NCBI GenBank assembly: GCA_021108405.1
Contig: JAIOQW010000305.1
Location: 1 to 38,724 of the forward strand
Direction: 5' to 3'
DNA: 38,724 nucleotides
DNA from: Methanosarcinales archaeon
GTDB lineage: Archaea > Halobacteriota > Methanosarcinia > Methanosarcinales > Methanocomedenaceae
Positions 17,832 through 38,662 of the stretch are shown piece after piece. Below the pieces are notes generated by a model. It was not told the origin of the DNA. It made no database searches and saw only the letters and a list, made by a program, of their open reading frames with translations. The number at the start of each line of letters is the position of its first letter. Within the stretch, counting starts at the first letter, position 1. The translations under genes were made by a program, and so were the position numbers.

Positions 17832-17938
17832 GGGCTCGTAGCTCAGACAGGCAGAGCACCTGGCTTTTAAAATGTAGAGTATATACTCATACATTTGAAG
17901 ATACCAGATGGTCGGGGGTTCAAATCCCTCCGAGCCCG
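17832..17938 (+). tRNA. tRNA-Lys (UUU) with a 33-nt intron
   Basis: Acceptor GGGCTCG (17,832-17,838) pairs with CGAGCCC (17,931-17,937); G is the discriminator and CC is encoded after it. The D arm is GCTC/GAGC, the T arm GGGGG-TTCAAAT-CCCTC. The anticodon loop is C-T-TTT-A-A, anticodon UUU at 17,866-17,868. The intron is 17,870-17,902, in the usual place after position 37. It makes a bulge-helix-bulge: CTTT (17,864-17,867) pairs with GAAG (17,897-17,900), with three-base bulges TAA and ATA cut between their second and third bases. The rest of the intron forms its own hairpin (AATGTA/TACATT enclosing GAGTA/TACTC). A 27-43 C-A mismatch in the anticodon stem is unusual. Confidence 0.95.
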
Positions 17939-32645: not shown

Positions 32646-33563
32646 TTAAAGATGTTTTCCAATATGAGCAACCAAGATTCGCCCTCCTTCTACATCTGGT
32701 TTCCCTTCATGAAAATAAATTCTATTAAAATAAAAATGTGTATCCCCGGGCAAGTCATTTTTACCTAATTTTAAGTGAGGTTCACAATAAATCGATATTG
32801 GATTTGAATTTTCATCAATAAAGTCAAAAGTAAGTGAAGATCTTCTCCTTGTATCCCCCTCAGCTGAAGCATCCACTTTACAAATAGAAGAAAACTTCCT
32901 TAAGGTTCGAATTCGATCAGAAGGATTATTATATTTACTGAAATTATCATTAAGTTGAGTAAGATTATATACAATCCCTTTTGCAAACTTTTTTAAACCA
33001 CCTTCTAATCCTCTTAGTGATGGCTCCACATTTGGATGGAAATTGATATTTGTAAAATATTTCTGAGATTCATAATAAAAGTTCGATTCATCGACTGGAT
33101 TTTTCGATAAAAAATACCTATGAAAATTATCCCAATGTTCTTTCGTTTGAATAATAAGTTTATCATCAATTTCATCTACATCAATTGAATGAAAACAAAG
33201 TAAACCTGTGAGAGCATCTGAATTATTCATCAAAAGAAATACTATTTCTTCTTCAGTTAAATCACTTTGCTTCGCATGATTAATAAGAATTTTTCTTAAA
33301 ATAGATATTTCATCTCGGTATTTGCTAAAATATTCATTCTTAACAAATAAAATGTCATGAATTGTGACATTTTCGAAAATTTTAATATAGAATATATCAT
33401 TATTTCTGAACACTTGATCCTTTTCACTCGGAAATTGATTATTAATTTTATTTATATGTAGTATTGTTTTTTGAAGCTCTCTTAGATTGTCACAAAAAAT
33501 ATCTGGTGAGATTTCATCTTTATCAATAAAAGATGAATTGAATAAATATAAATCTGCTTTCAC
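32646..33563 (-). CDS. unknown protein, third gene of the DUF262/AAA cassette
   Basis: A 305-residue soluble protein with no family that I recognise with confidence. The middle is mostly helical and charged. The last 90 residues appear to be a separate beta-rich domain: ICKVDASAEGD, then SIYCEPHLKL, a DTHFYFNRIYFHEGKP stretch and a closing VAHIGKHL. Similar HLKL...RIYF...GKHL endings occur in unnamed proteins beside AAA ATPases, which is an impression and not a search result. It overlaps the ATPase gene by 4 bases, so the two are translated together. An effector or partner role in a defence unit is plausible but unproven. Confidence 0.7.
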   Translation of the reverse strand: MKADLYLFNSSFIDKDEISPDIFCDNLRELQKTILHINKINNQFPSEKDQVFRNNDIFYIKIFENVTIHDILFVKNEYFSKYRDEISILRKILINHAKQSDLTEEEIVFLLMNNSDALTGLLCFHSIDVDEIDDKLIIQTKEHWDNFHRYFLSKNPVDESNFYYESQKYFTNINFHPNVEPSLRGLEGGLKKFAKGIVYNLTQLNDNFSKYNNPSDRIRTLRKFSSICKVDASAEGDTRRRSSLTFDFIDENSNPISIYCEPHLKLGKNDLPGDTHFYFNRIYFHEGKPDVEGGRILVAHIGKHL

Positions 33564-34690
33564 TGCTTTCTACCTTCAAATATATCTGCCAAATCTCTCT
33601 CTTCTTGGTCAAAAAATCCATATGGCCAATCAGATAATCCTGCATTTTCATCTATTGTTAAATGCTGAATTTCTGGACTTTTAGATTTTTCATTTATATT
33701 AAAAAAATTGATAGATATCAAATCATTTGGAATACACTTTTTTAAAATGGCTATTCGTATTCCATTAATCACATGTTCACTGTGTGTTTCTATTAGAACT
33801 TGAACACCTGAAGAAGCTATCTGTGCTAAAAATTGACCAATCCTCGATTGTCCACTTGGATGTAGATGTGCCTCTGGATTTTCTACTATTAATAGACATC
33901 CTTTATCTGCCATCAATCCACTAACTATAATTGGAAGGACATATGAAATTCCAAAACCAACATTATTAGGATTTAATGGTTTTGTATCAGAGTAACTTCT
34001 TCTTAAGTGATAACCCACCATATTTATTTCATGATACAGAGCAGTAGTGATTTCGATGCCTGGAACAATGTAATTTAACCAATATTCTACTTGCTTATTT
34101 AAGTTAGGTACGGTTAATTTAGCACTATTGATTCTTCTTTTTTTGTCAATTTTATAATCGCTGTTATTTGCTAAAGTACATCCTGTATATTCTCCTTGAA
34201 ATCCGGTATTAGCAAAATTCTGATTAACTAGACTTTGGATAACCCTTGGTCCTAATCGCTCTGCATTGAGGTAATGGAATTGATTATTATAAATCGATAA
34301 AGATTGATTTTGATGAATATTTTCTGAATTGTTGAACTTTAGTACTAACTCTGATTTTTTTTTAGACATAGAATAATTAAATGTCATCTCAACATCGGCT
34401 TTATCATTTAGGGTGAAACTAATTTCTTCTGAAGTTGCCGCTGAAGAAAGTACCTGTGAACTATCACCTAAATTTAACAGATATTCACCGTTTAATTGAA
34501 TATCAAAGTCAAAAGGCTTATGATCAGTTTTTAACTTATCAATAGTCTGCCTCACAAGTAAAAGTGCTTGTATTATTGTTGATTTTCCCACTGCGTTTGA
34601 TCCAGCTAATACTGTTAATCCATTAAAACTAATTGAATTATCTAAAAAACATTTAAAATTCTTAATGGTTACATTTCTTATCATAGTCAA
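33560..34690 (-). CDS. RecF/SMC-type AAA ATPase with DUF3696-like end
   Basis: A 376-residue ABC-class ATPase. The Walker A is AGSNAVGKST (29-38) after a KNFKCF start typical of the AAA_15/AAA_21 group; the signature and Walker B region read LLIVENPEAHLHPSGQ, and the H-loop is LIETHSEHVINGIR. The C-terminal SDWPYGFFDQEERDL matches the DUF3696 tail. Such proteins partner with nucleases or other effectors in several anti-phage systems. It overlaps both neighbours by 4 bases (ATGA), so the three genes form a tight unit. No nuclease (TOPRIM) domain is present, unlike OLD proteins. Confidence 0.88.
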   Translation of the reverse strand: MTMIRNVTIKNFKCFLDNSISFNGLTVLAGSNAVGKSTIIQALLLVRQTIDKLKTDHKPFDFDIQLNGEYLLNLGDSSQVLSSAATSEEISFTLNDKADVEMTFNYSMSKKKSELVLKFNNSENIHQNQSLSIYNNQFHYLNAERLGPRVIQSLVNQNFANTGFQGEYTGCTLANNSDYKIDKKRRINSAKLTVPNLNKQVEYWLNYIVPGIEITTALYHEINMVGYHLRRSYSDTKPLNPNNVGFGISYVLPIIVSGLMADKGCLLIVENPEAHLHPSGQSRIGQFLAQIASSGVQVLIETHSEHVINGIRIAILKKCIPNDLISINFFNINEKSKSPEIQHLTIDENAGLSDWPYGFFDQEERDLADIFEGRKQ

Positions 34691-36093
34691 ACCTTCAAAT
34701 GGTCGGTAATTATTTTTTGAACAGTTAAAAAAGTCAGTCCAATTCTTTTTTGATCATTTGTACCGATAGTAATTGCATTATAAAAATCTTGATTATTGTC
34801 TAGTTCAAGAGCAAATGGTTCGAGAAGACACTTCTTCTCATTTTTATTCTTAACTTCATTATAATCGAAATTTGATAATAAAACTGATAATGAAGTAAAT
34901 AGTGACTTATTGATTAATTGTTTTCTTGCATTAGGTTTAATATGTTCACATTTACATTTTCTAAAGGCATATTCGCCAAACAAATATTCAGCAATTTTCA
35001 TAGAATTTAAAAAAGCATTCCGAATCATATTTAATTTTTCTTCACCTTTTTCATTGTTCAATAATTCTAAAGTCTCATCAAGAAATAGTTTCATTCCCCC
35101 TTTATATTTTAGTTTTTCATTACCTAATATTTTAATATAATAAAATCCTAAAAATCTCATTACGAGTTCTTCATCAGCCATTCTAATCGAACTTACACTT
35201 CCAAAAGTAGCTTCTGTAAATTCATTCGAACTTGATAATTCTTTTATCATAGATCTTATTCGAGGACTAGCCAGACAATTACGTATTTCCTGATTATTTA
35301 GAGGTTTGCCACCAGTATTGATTCTTTTAAAAATATCAAACTTGACTTTGTGTGGTGTTTGGGGATCTATAATATTAAAAATAAGTTGAGTTTGATTAAT
35401 CCTTCTAATATATTTTGGATCGAGATTCTTTGTATCATTTTTATTAAAATAACAACCCTTACAATCTTGTAAATATTCTAAATTTTTCAATTTAAATTCA
35501 TTTTTTAAAAAATCTTTAATCACTGTGAGCCTTTGAACCCCGTCAACAATTTGCAATTTTCCATCATTATCTTGTGATAAATAAAAAACTGGCAAGGGAA
35601 TTCTTAGTAAAATCGACTCAATTAATCTGGATTTACGAGTAATATCAGTCCATACAAAATTTCTTTGGAAATCAGGAGATAAATCCAAATCATTGTGCTC
35701 ACCATCCATCATTTCTAAAACATAACTTATAGACATCGATTTTGTATCAACTCTTATCAATTCCGGATCATAAGGTTTTAGTTCTGAAATGACTTCGGAA
35801 TCTTCATCTGTATCTTCAATCCCTGCGTTTTTATTTTCTAGTTTTCGCTCTGATAATTCAGTAATTATCATCTCAAATTCGTCATTTATAGCATCATCTG
35901 GGCTTCGGATATTATTACCTTTTTCTATTGACTTGATTTTATTTTCTTCGTCAGTTAAAATTGATATACTATAATCATCGCCACTATAACCTTCAGCAAA
36001 CCCACTCCAAAAAGTTCCATTTGAAGTTTCTTTTGGGGATAATATCGCTTCTAATAGATTGTCAGAATTTATTACATGAACATTTATTTTCAT
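34687..36093 (-). CDS. DUF262 (GmrS-like, ParB-fold) protein without an HNH domain
   Basis: A 468-residue protein. The first 100 or so residues are acidic and unassigned. The DUF262 domain (about 125-270) has DFQRNFVWTDITRKSRLIE, then IPLPVFYLSQD, and the nucleotide-binding motif DGVQR. DUF262 is the GmrS part of GmrSD, which uses NTP to control a nuclease; here the DUF1524 HNH motif usually found in a GmrD part is absent. The C-terminal half has a CKCEH motif and helical character. It begins the three-gene cassette and overlaps the ATPase gene by 4 bases. It probably senses or regulates rather than cuts. Confidence 0.85.
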   Translation of the reverse strand: MKINVHVINSDNLLEAILSPKETSNGTFWSGFAEGYSGDDYSISILTDEENKIKSIEKGNNIRSPDDAINDEFEMIITELSERKLENKNAGIEDTDEDSEVISELKPYDPELIRVDTKSMSISYVLEMMDGEHNDLDLSPDFQRNFVWTDITRKSRLIESILLRIPLPVFYLSQDNDGKLQIVDGVQRLTVIKDFLKNEFKLKNLEYLQDCKGCYFNKNDTKNLDPKYIRRINQTQLIFNIIDPQTPHKVKFDIFKRINTGGKPLNNQEIRNCLASPRIRSMIKELSSSNEFTEATFGSVSSIRMADEELVMRFLGFYYIKILGNEKLKYKGGMKLFLDETLELLNNEKGEEKLNMIRNAFLNSMKIAEYLFGEYAFRKCKCEHIKPNARKQLINKSLFTSLSVLLSNFDYNEVKNKNEKKCLLEPFALELDNNQDFYNAITIGTNDQKRIGLTFLTVQKIITDHLKV

Positions 36094-36308: not shown

Positions 36309-36475
36309 TATAAATAAATCCGAGCATCAACCAGATGCCCCGGACAGAGCGAAGCGGCGTCCGGGGTCGTTGACTTTGTGGGGTTGGGTCGAAAGACTTA
36401 ATGCAGGAGAAGAGTGAAGGGAGTATGTGATGATTGGAGTTCGCCCGTAAGGATGCATATATGGACCAGGTTCGG
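36309..36475 (+). ncRNA. candidate structured RNA or element, GC-rich island
   Basis: In an AT-rich gap, the stretch 36,327-36,470 is markedly GC-rich. It opens with a strong hairpin: CCCCGGAC (36,338-36,345) pairs with GTCCGGGG (36,359-36,366), extended by TCAAC/GTTGA outside it. A second small hairpin with a GAAA loop (GTC-GAAA-GAC) follows near 36,388-36,400. TATAAATA at 36,309-36,316 is a good archaeal TATA box about 25-30 bases before the hairpin. No open frame fits. A small RNA gene is the simplest reading, but a mobile-element end is possible. Confidence 0.4.
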
Positions 36476-36512: not shown

Positions 36513-36721
36513 TAAAATGAAGGATTAATATAGACACGGATTAACGTACGATTATACCTTTCGGTTTGTTTTGTATATTTTTCATGTATGAGATAGAATA
36601 AATGTACCTAATATTTATCAAAAATATCAACATATTTGCTGAATGTAGGCGAAGAGAGATAGGCTAACATATACCCTATTATTTTATTAAGTGGTTTAAG
36701 TAGCATCCACAGTTTCAAATA

Positions 36722-36740
36722 TCGGGGGCACATCCCCCGA
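36722..36740. terminator. G5/C5 hairpin downstream of the zinc-ribbon gene
   Basis: TCGGGGG and CCCCCGA form a perfect 7-bp stem around CACAT, 27 bases after the stop of the minus-strand gene at 36,768. GAACCCCC follows, as in REP-like G-rich elements common in prokaryotes. It may end transcription of that gene. Confidence 0.6.
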
Positions 36741-36767
36741 ACCCCCTCGAACTAATGATTGTTGTTA

Positions 36768-37061
36768 TTATTCATCTTTTTCATCTTTAAAACGTTCATG
36801 CCATACATCCTTTATCTGTTCTGAATCGCGATATCTATAACTAGGTCTGCCAAGATCATTTGATGTGCCTCCTGTAAGTTTACATCGCTCACATTCAAAT
36901 ACTGCTTCAAACTTACCATTAATGTAATAGATAAATGGACGCAAAATTCTCTTTCTACCAGATCTGCAAATATGACATTCAGTTTTAATATTCTTAAATA
37001 AATGAGGAGACATTGTTAAATCAATTCTTTCTTCTAATGTGATATTTCTGGATTTCATCAA
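36768..37061 (-). CDS. zinc-ribbon protein, function unknown
   Basis: A 97-residue protein with two CxxC pairs, C29-x2-C32 and C57-x2-C60, separated by 24 residues with IYYINGKFEAVFECERC between, a typical zinc ribbon. The C-terminus is charged (SEQIKDVWHERFKDEKDE). Two Met codons begin the frame and either could be the start. It is 79 bp from the end of the IS110 transposase and in the same direction, so it might be carried along or simply be a neighbour. I do not recognise the family. Confidence 0.6.
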   Translation of the reverse strand: MMKSRNITLEERIDLTMSPHLFKNIKTECHICRSGRKRILRPFIYYINGKFEAVFECERCKLTGGTSNDLGRPSYRYRDSEQIKDVWHERFKDEKDE

Positions 37062-37139
37062 TTACTCACTATTTTGAACCTCAAATAAGATAGCTTAAGC
37101 TGATCGCTATTGTATTTGGTTTCTTCCCTTTTCTAATGC

Positions 37140-38342
37140 TTATGCCTGTTGTGTTTGATATTCTTTATTGTTATTTAATACCCAATAAACAATTCTTAGT
37201 AATTTAGCAGCTAAAGCATTTAATGCTGAATGAAAATGCTTTCCTTTATTCATTTTCTTTTCATAATATTTTCGTAGATTTACATCTTTCTGCCTTGCAA
37301 CATTTGCTGCTGTGAATAAAGCCCACCGAAGATCTGGTGATCCTCTCTTTGAAATATGTCCGGTTTTATTTTTGAACTTTCCCGAGTGATTTATAACCGG
37401 ATCAAGACCAGCAAAAGCAACTAACTTTTTAACATTACTAAATCTACTTATATCGCCAATTTCACCAAGAATAACTGCTCCTAAATAGCTGCCAATACCA
37501 GGAATCGATGTAATCTGTGTATTCATCTGATTCATCGACAGATTGATTTCTTTATCTAATGCTTGAATCTGTTTATTGTACATTTCAATTTCTAACACAA
37601 GTGTTTTGATTTCAATACTGACAATAGAATCAATTTCAGGCACAGTTAATATGTGCTCTATTTGATTGTATAACTCTTGTGCTTGTTCTCTTGATATTTG
37701 TGATCGTGAATTTTTTTTAATCATTTCAAAAATCTCTTCGATGGGCCTTGAAGCTGCAATTGAGGGAGATGAATATTCTTTTAGAATTGCCAGTGAAGTT
37801 TTTCCAAAAATACTCTTCATAACTGACTTATATCCAGGCCAAATCAAATCGAGATTGCGGATAAGCTGAATTTTACACTTGGTACGTTTATCCACATTTC
37901 GCTGACGTACTCTGCACAATTCTCTTAGCTGGTATATCGCTAAATTATCAAAAGTAGTTGAAACAGATGGTTCATGATAACGTAACATATCTGAAATGAT
38001 AGCGGAATCGATCTGATCTGTTTTTGTCTTGCGTATTTCCATTTTACGATAACCATTTGTTTGAATTGGATTAAAAAGTTTCACCAGACATCCATCTCGC
38101 TTAAGTGCAGAATATAATGGGAAACAGTATATTCCAGTTGCTTCCATGCCAAAAAATGCTTCTGCATTTTCTCCAGTATTAGCTTTAAATTTATCTACTG
38201 TTATGTAGAGTTTATTAAGACCTTCCTTTGTGTTCTTGATCTTAAATTGTTTGAGCACGTTCCCGTTGTTGTTTTTGATACAAATATCATGTTTATTTTT
38301 CGATACATCAATTCCAATTAATATTTTTATATTCTGATTCAT
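37140..38342 (-). CDS. IS110-family transposase
   Basis: A 400-residue recombinase of the IS110 family. The RuvC-like DEDD residues are Asp12 (GIDVSK), Glu67 (GMEATG), Asp109 and Asp112 (KTKTDQIDS). The C-terminal Tnp20 domain has SIPGIGSYLGAVILGEIGDISRF and then HSGKF (Ser320, the likely nucleophile serine) and GHISKRG. The protein appears complete. GGAGG lies 7 bases before the ATG (38,342). IS110 enzymes use a structured RNA from the region upstream of the gene to pair target and donor, and a fitting candidate is visible at 38,382-38,556. Confidence 0.95.
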   Translation of the reverse strand: MNQNIKILIGIDVSKNKHDICIKNNNGNVLKQFKIKNTKEGLNKLYITVDKFKANTGENAEAFFGMEATGIYCFPLYSALKRDGCLVKLFNPIQTNGYRKMEIRKTKTDQIDSAIISDMLRYHEPSVSTTFDNLAIYQLRELCRVRQRNVDKRTKCKIQLIRNLDLIWPGYKSVMKSIFGKTSLAILKEYSSPSIAASRPIEEIFEMIKKNSRSQISREQAQELYNQIEHILTVPEIDSIVSIEIKTLVLEIEMYNKQIQALDKEINLSMNQMNTQITSIPGIGSYLGAVILGEIGDISRFSNVKKLVAFAGLDPVINHSGKFKNKTGHISKRGSPDLRWALFTAANVARQKDVNLRKYYEKKMNKGKHFHSALNALAAKLLRIVYWVLNNNKEYQTQQA

Positions 38343-38381
38343 ATTTCGGCCTCCTTGGTTATATTTTATCTCAAATGTTAA

Positions 38382-38556
38382 GGCCGAGAGAACAATATTT
38401 CCTCCTTTTTCCTTCCCACAAGTTCGCTAGTTATATGTGATACATATTTATTTATATGGTCAAAACGTACTAATTCGTGTATTGAAAGGAAGAGAGGGTA
38501 ACAGGTTAATCAACGGGAACGAATCCCAAACACAGTGTTTGTTATCCCTCTCGGCC
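38382..38556 (-). ncRNA. candidate IS110 bridge RNA
   Basis: Directly upstream of the transposase a 175-base segment is closed by GGCCGAGAG (38,382-38,390) and CTCTCGGCC (38,548-38,556). Inside, GAGAGGGTAAC (38,492-38,502) pairs with GTTATCCCTCTC (38,541-38,552) with one bulged base, and its loop contains a GGGA/TCCC hairpin. A second stem, GGAAG (38,488-38,492) with CTTCC (38,412-38,416), encloses another loop. Two stem-loops with internal loops, upstream of the gene and of this length, are what IS110 bridge RNAs look like. Outer and inner stems share bases, so they cannot both form fully. Confidence 0.55.
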
Positions 38557-38572
38557 TACTTTCAGAGTAGGC
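38554..38572. repeat. perfect 7-bp hairpin at the upstream end of the IS110 element
   Basis: GCCTACT (38,554-38,560) pairs with AGTAGGC (38,566-38,572) around TTCAG. It lies at the edge of the candidate bridge RNA and may be close to the element's left end, whose exact position cannot be set without an empty site. Confidence 0.6.
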
Positions 38573-38662
38573 TGCAAGAAGTTATATTTTTTTTCCTGCG
38601 ATATAGGTGTATATACGAACACAGATTTACACAGATTATTGAAAAAAAGGATATGGTATTTC

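Follow-up and report, generated by a model that had tools for sequence, protein, structure and literature searches.

The 175-base segment at 38382-38556 (minus strand) of the window, the 38,724-nt stretch of archaeal DNA analysed here, very probably comprises most of a bridge RNA that is encoded in the left end of an IS110 element and guides its insertion (probability about 0.94). The element ends, a two-loop fold and matches between guides and flanks were read from the sequence; the remaining steps are modelled on bacterial IS621. An earlier sequence-only reading had proposed a bridge RNA of an archaeal IS110 element here, and this proposal is supported by the match of one loop to the target and of the other to the donor. 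Most of what is known about programmable bridge RNAs comes from bacteria. In the literature that we searched, archaea appear only as survey genomes or in passing, with no dedicated study of archaeal bridge RNAs; judging from the guide matches described here, the bacterial mechanism of RNA-guided insertion very likely works in archaea too.

The element, its ends and its transposase

The window corresponds to contig 15 in the 3.67-Mb draft genome of an ANME-2-type archaeon. To define the ends of the element, we compared its junctions with uninterrupted targets in the same genome. At one end of the window copy ATCTGTGTT joins CGTATATACACC (in a longer reading, ...AATCTGTGTT joins CGTATATACACC...), and at the other GTACGTT joins AATCCGTGTC (...ATAATCGTACGTT joins AATCCGTGTCTATATTAATC), whereas L010, a dispersed repeat without the element (AATCTGTGTGAATCTGTGTTAATCCGTGTCTATATTAATC), carries the uninterrupted site ATCTGTGTTAATCCGTGTC; L011 is similar. 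The complete 2.1-kb element therefore occupies 36543-38619 (about 2.08 kb) on the minus strand, with a GTT/TT core. Its parts and borders are:

36543-38619, minus: whole IS110 element with core dinucleotides (left core 38618-38619, right core 36543-36544)
38620-38628, minus: left half of the target, AATCTGTG, before core TT; matches the left target guide (LTG)
36535-36542, minus: right half of the target, AATCCGTG; matches the right target guide (RTG)
38343-38617, minus: left end (LE), 275 bp, encoding the predicted bridge RNA and the transposase leader
37140-38342, minus: IS110 transposase, 400 aa, DEDD_Tnp_IS110 and Transposase_20
36545-37139, minus: right end (RE), 595 bp, unusually long, with terminus CCGAAAGGTATAATCGTACG
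36768-37061, minus: 97-aa passenger ORF with two CxxC motifs, within the RE
36545-36565, minus: conserved BRE/TATA-like RE terminus, candidate promoter; kept in own-genome relics, L022, L026 and L027

Insertion is site-specific, as seen from the uninterrupted L010 site, and takes place at a short core within an ambiguous GTT. The core is surrounded by a short inverted repeat, TACG-TT-CGTA; long terminal inverted repeats are absent from the ends of the window copy. Locating the ends, a check proposed beforehand, places the segment inside the element, in its left end. The RE is longer than the LE in the window copy (595 vs 275 bp) and measures about 0.3 kb in relatives.

The segment lies directly upstream of the transposase gene, as the sequence-only reading had stated (37140-38342, minus; PF01548, E 2.9e-36; PF02371, E 3.3e-26). 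The protein combines a DEDD RuvC-like N-terminal domain with a C-terminal Transposase_20 domain carrying the conserved serine, and aligns with the PDB entries for ISCro4 and for IS621 (8wt6; DEDD and SK.G motifs). Its closest named relatives are from ANME-2 cluster archaea (68-70% identity), and its dN/dS against L022 is about 0.15.

Could the window copy be a decayed relic whose guide-like sequence is kept by descent only? Many copies in the source genome are fragmentary and lie at contig ends, and remains of a second IS110 are found in the RE. Yet the location of most fragments at contig ends is expected where an assembly breaks at multi-copy elements. The transposase of the window copy is intact (400 aa, no stops) and under purifying selection, both ends are intact, and LTG and RTG match the copy's own site. 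We thus consider a relic improbable.

Predicted fold of the bridge RNA

We folded the LE of the window copy and of 13 relatives. The predicted LE fold (-69.8 kcal/mol) consists of two 5' hairpins, a target loop and a donor loop, in this order:

38409-38600, minus: inferred bridge RNA, about 190 nt, predicted ends (LE fold; conserved in 17 aligned copies)
38574-38599, minus: 5' hairpin 0, GCAGGA...TCTTGC (LE fold; GCAAGA...TCTTGC in relatives)
38554-38572, minus: 5' hairpin 1, GCCTAC...GTAGGC (LE fold; one pair compensated in 5 sequences)
38492-38552, minus: target-binding loop, stem GAGAGGG/CCCTCTC (LE fold and alignment)
38529-38536, minus: LTG, ACTGTGTT; 7/8 to left flank TCTGTGTT (p=5e-5, 12 guide classes)
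38506-38512, minus: RTG, TGATTAA (reverse complement TTAATCA); 6/7 to right target TTAATCC
38409-38491, minus: donor-binding loop, stem TTCCTTTC/GGAAGGAA (LE fold; pairs as ATCCTTTT/AAAAGGAT in relatives)
38464-38471, minus: left donor guide (LDG), AGTACGTT; equals the element right end ...GTACGTT
38422-38429, minus: right donor guide (RDG), TAGCGAAC; pairs with the core and left end GTTCG, followed by a G-U wobble
38382-38390, minus: 3' arm of the outer stem, CTCTCGGCC; alternative partner of the ribosome-binding site (RBS)
38347-38356, minus: RBS arm, AAGGAGGCCG, upstream of the transposase start

The two internal stem-loops noted in the sequence-only reading are real and correspond to the target- and donor-binding loops. 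Its segment covers most of the RNA; its borders cut off the 5' hairpins (38554-38599) and overrun the end of the donor loop at ~38409, with the predicted RNA starting at ~38600. Compared with dinucleotide shuffles, the segment is unusually stable (z -2.93; 2/200 as good), as is the whole leader (z -3.70; 0/200 as good).

Pairing in the donor-loop stem survives base changes (TTCC/GGAA in the window copy, ATCC/GGAT in relatives). Covariation within the RNA is weak (term -0.35, RNAalifold on a MAFFT alignment) because the target-loop stem is nearly invariant. As MAFFT misaligned the 3' arm of the donor loop, we examined the stems one sequence at a time. RNAalifold also paired the start of the LE with the donor loop (columns 1-5 with 154-158); we rejected this helix, which reflects donor guide complementarity (CGTAT/GTACG) and is not intramolecular. 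A target-loop pattern gave 61 matches in 25 genomes, out of 238 searched in the class, and none when reversed; no Rfam family matched. Across sister copies, a comparison set beforehand as a test, the predicted guide positions vary and the structure stays.

The sequence-only reading had closed the 175-nt RNA with a 9-bp stem, GGCCGAGAG/CTCTCGGCC, holding both loops inside. The loops are real, the complementarity is present, and relatives keep it (97% of cells paired vs 30-59% when slid). Covariation of this outer stem is not clearly above that of shuffles (38/500), though, and when the stem is forced, hairpin 1 and the target-loop stem open and the energy rises from -69.8 to -62.9 kcal/mol, a cost of 6.9 kcal/mol in the window copy and of 0.1-10 kcal/mol in the 13 relatives. 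Moreover, in the best fold of most copies its 3' arm pairs with the RBS arm. The predicted fold lacks the outer stem, which is a less stable alternative, and a bridge RNA closed by this stem is very unlikely.

The 3' motif that directly follows the donor loop most likely masks the RBS of the transposase gene. L022 and L036 lost the standard register of the RBS hairpin but keep the hairpin in another, and L029 is without it; column shuffles revealed no covariation for the pairing between the 3' arm and the RBS. Tentatively, and against the odds, the leader may be a two-state switch between guide RNA and messenger, an idea that takes up the switching suggested in the sequence-only reading. In one state CTCTCGRCC would pair with the RBS, leaving the bridge RNA folded and translation off; in the other it would pair with the GGYCGAGAG arm that belongs to hairpin 1 and the target loop, breaking the bridge RNA and turning translation on, so that one transcript would never serve both roles at once. 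Such a switch would explain how a single left end can act as guide RNA and as mRNA leader.

Guides and flanks

To relate guides to insertion sites, we defined the LTG as the 8 bases preceding TGGGAT in the target loop and gathered from the class 45 copies for which a left flank was available; these yield 27 distinct pairs in 12 guide classes; as the copies are related, independent guide changes are fewer than copies. Over the 12 classes, the LTG matches its own left flank at a mean of 6.0/8 positions, compared with 4.4 when guides are reassigned, and 0/20,000 permutations scored as high. At the five variable LTG positions the values are 3.1 and 1.65, respectively. When every leader offset was scanned blindly, the LTG was the only position at which the excess of own-flank matches peaked, and there the leader reads in the sense of the target top strand. 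One of the 27 pairs, L030, was scored with an empty flank; this scoring is conservative since the true flank, CAATCCTGTT, agrees with the L030 guide. The RTG could be scored in eight copies whose two ends lie on the same contig; its reverse complement matches the own right flank at 4.6/5 variable bases, against 2.6 when reassigned (p=0.0003, permutation).

Matches extend beyond the common repeat in L029 (TCTTGTT and TTTTTCT; predicted target TTCTTGTTTTTCTC), L023 (TTTCGTT), L027 (TTAATCC) and L031 (CTCTG). L031 has the left core CT instead of TT, a change shared by flank, LTG and RDG (GCGAGC). Guide and flank match poorly in some copies, namely L115 and the left side of L032. The RDG pairing, CGAAC/GTTCG, is short, with only 5 bases and one wobble.

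It is highly implausible that the segment serves solely as an attenuator, a structured 5' leader by which the transposase mRNA hides its RBS, and that the guide matches are coincidental. Most copies do have a predicted RBS hairpin, and a leader of this type is known from ISPpu9, which belongs to the IS110 family (PMC8450116), but this account leaves a variable 8-nt stretch that tracks the insertion site over 12 guide classes, a second guide and a donor match unexplained, and the guide-flank permutation tests refute it as the sole explanation. A leader function and a bridge RNA can coexist.

The natural aims of the guides are:

ATCYGYGTT^HATCYGYG: window copy and others
ATCCTGTT^AATCC: L030, L084, L088
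CYGTGCT^CTCTG: L031, L092
GTATTTGTT^: five G185 flanks, left half only
TTCTTGTT^TTTCTC: L029
AAAGTGTT^AATAG: L032

Natural guides have thus been re-aimed at least several times within the clade, their targets including various dispersed repeats, sister elements and the gene of another transposase. The site of the window copy, ATCTGTGTT^AATCCGTG (as a whole, ATCTGTGTTAATCCGTG), belongs to a dispersed intergenic repeat with a 10-base period (ATCYGYGTTH; window 38618-38640 and 36525-36545) that often forms inverted pairs. The target occurs at 202 places in the source genome (G000), with 0 for the reversed control, and this abundant repeat is probably a harmless place to land.

In genome G185, at least 11 copies share a single guide (ATTTTGTT) and almost all of them lie at contig ends; five flanks read GTATTTGTT, each in a different context; these copies represent a recent burst of insertion. 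At L029/L045, an IS110 copy with matching guides lies near the 3' end of the transposase gene of another IS110 group, and L032 lies inside the right end of a sister element, again with matching guides; both are IS110s aimed at IS110s. A second archaeal IS110 group (L037, L038, L039, L040, L041 and L045) has a transposase ~35% identical and appears to possess its own target loop and a CT core. In the first guide register this group gave no guide-flank signal. Shifting the guide by one base gave 5.3/7 vs 4.3 (p=0.006), a result from six copies in a register picked after the first try that is suggestive only.

Proposed mechanism, known systems and neighbouring features

By analogy with IS621, the element would be excised as a circle in which ...GTACGTT joins CGTATATAC. 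The conserved CCGAAAGGTATAATAGTACG at the RE end resembles BRE/TATA, and its spacing suits a start near hairpin 0. In the circular form the RE terminus would face the bridge RNA, so that the joined right and left ends could form a BRE/TATA-like promoter, with CCGAAAGGTATAATCGTACG just upstream of hairpin 0, driving the RNA. The bridge RNA, presumably loaded on the transposase as in IS621, would pair through its target loop with both target strands around the core TT and through its donor loop with the circle junction. DEDD-serine chemistry would then exchange the strands and insert the circle, in the case of the window copy at the dispersed intergenic repeat at which its guide is aimed.

This layout closely resembles that of the IS621 bridge RNA from E. 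coli, a member of the IS110 group (Durrant et al. 2024, PMC11208160). In both, an LE-encoded RNA upstream of a DEDD/Ser transposase contains a 5' stem-loop, a target loop and a donor loop, in this order; the 5' guide reads as the target top strand (pairing with the bottom strand) and the 3' guide pairs with the top; the first loop is poorly conserved and the second highly. Both insert into dispersed repeats, REP elements being targets of the bacterial relatives, and a short inverted repeat flanks the core, the IS110-group pattern (PMC11208160). Unlike IS621, the copy described here resides in an archaeal host and has two 5' hairpins, a passenger ORF in the RE, a core that is mostly TT (CT in some copies) and a predicted circle-junction promoter that is BRE/TATA-like instead of sigma-70-like. 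In contrast to typical IS110-group elements (PMC11208160), its RE is longer than its LE; an LE longer than the RE is a statistical tendency of the group and not essential.

The seekRNA of IS1111/IS110 elements (Siddiquee et al. 2024, PMC11187229, who describe the IS1111 family as abundant in archaea) is likewise a transposase-associated RNA that selects the target. In IS1111 elements the RNA lies in the right end and the subterminal inverted repeats are long, whereas the guides of the window copy lie in the LE at 38506-38536; the copy fits the IS110 group, not IS1111. Repeat targeting and a leader structure hiding the transposase RBS are shared with ISPpu9 of P. putida (IS110 family), whose long 5' UTR forms this structure (PMC8450116). 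The ISPpu9 leader is opened by an antisense RNA, a role that in the window copy may fall to a competing 5' arm within the bridge RNA.

Modestly surprising features are the long RE, whose passenger ORF is under selection, the TT core and the possible leader switch. The natural guide/target pairs are ready-made for testing bridge recombination in archaea, and the elements may suit other temperatures, salinities and cell types.

The 97-aa ORF is present in several element copies of the source genome, with a broken copy in G009, and has no match in Pfam or PADLOC. It is under purifying selection in two comparisons (dN/dS 0.10-0.17); a third, with a frame-shifting gap in the alignment, was uninformative. 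At 36590-36680 (plus strand), the RE contains, in inverted and degenerate form, part of a left end of the L037-L041 type (TCTCGTATATAGGATAAGTGCACC...), which belongs to the second IS110 group; the 5' hairpin region of that left end is included. A strong palindrome, CCCCGGACAGAGCGAAGCGGCGTCCGGGG, is located just outside the element (window 36338-36366), and right ends of relatives contain similar hairpins with AGCGAAGCG-like loops. The element adjoins a complete three-gene defence operon, NsnA-NsnB-NsnC (window 32646-36093, minus; PADLOC E 2.6e-116, 8.9e-111 and 4.8e-69), which we take to be a Menshen system. A tRNA gene at 17832-17938 (plus) spans 107 bases, a length that could hold an intron.
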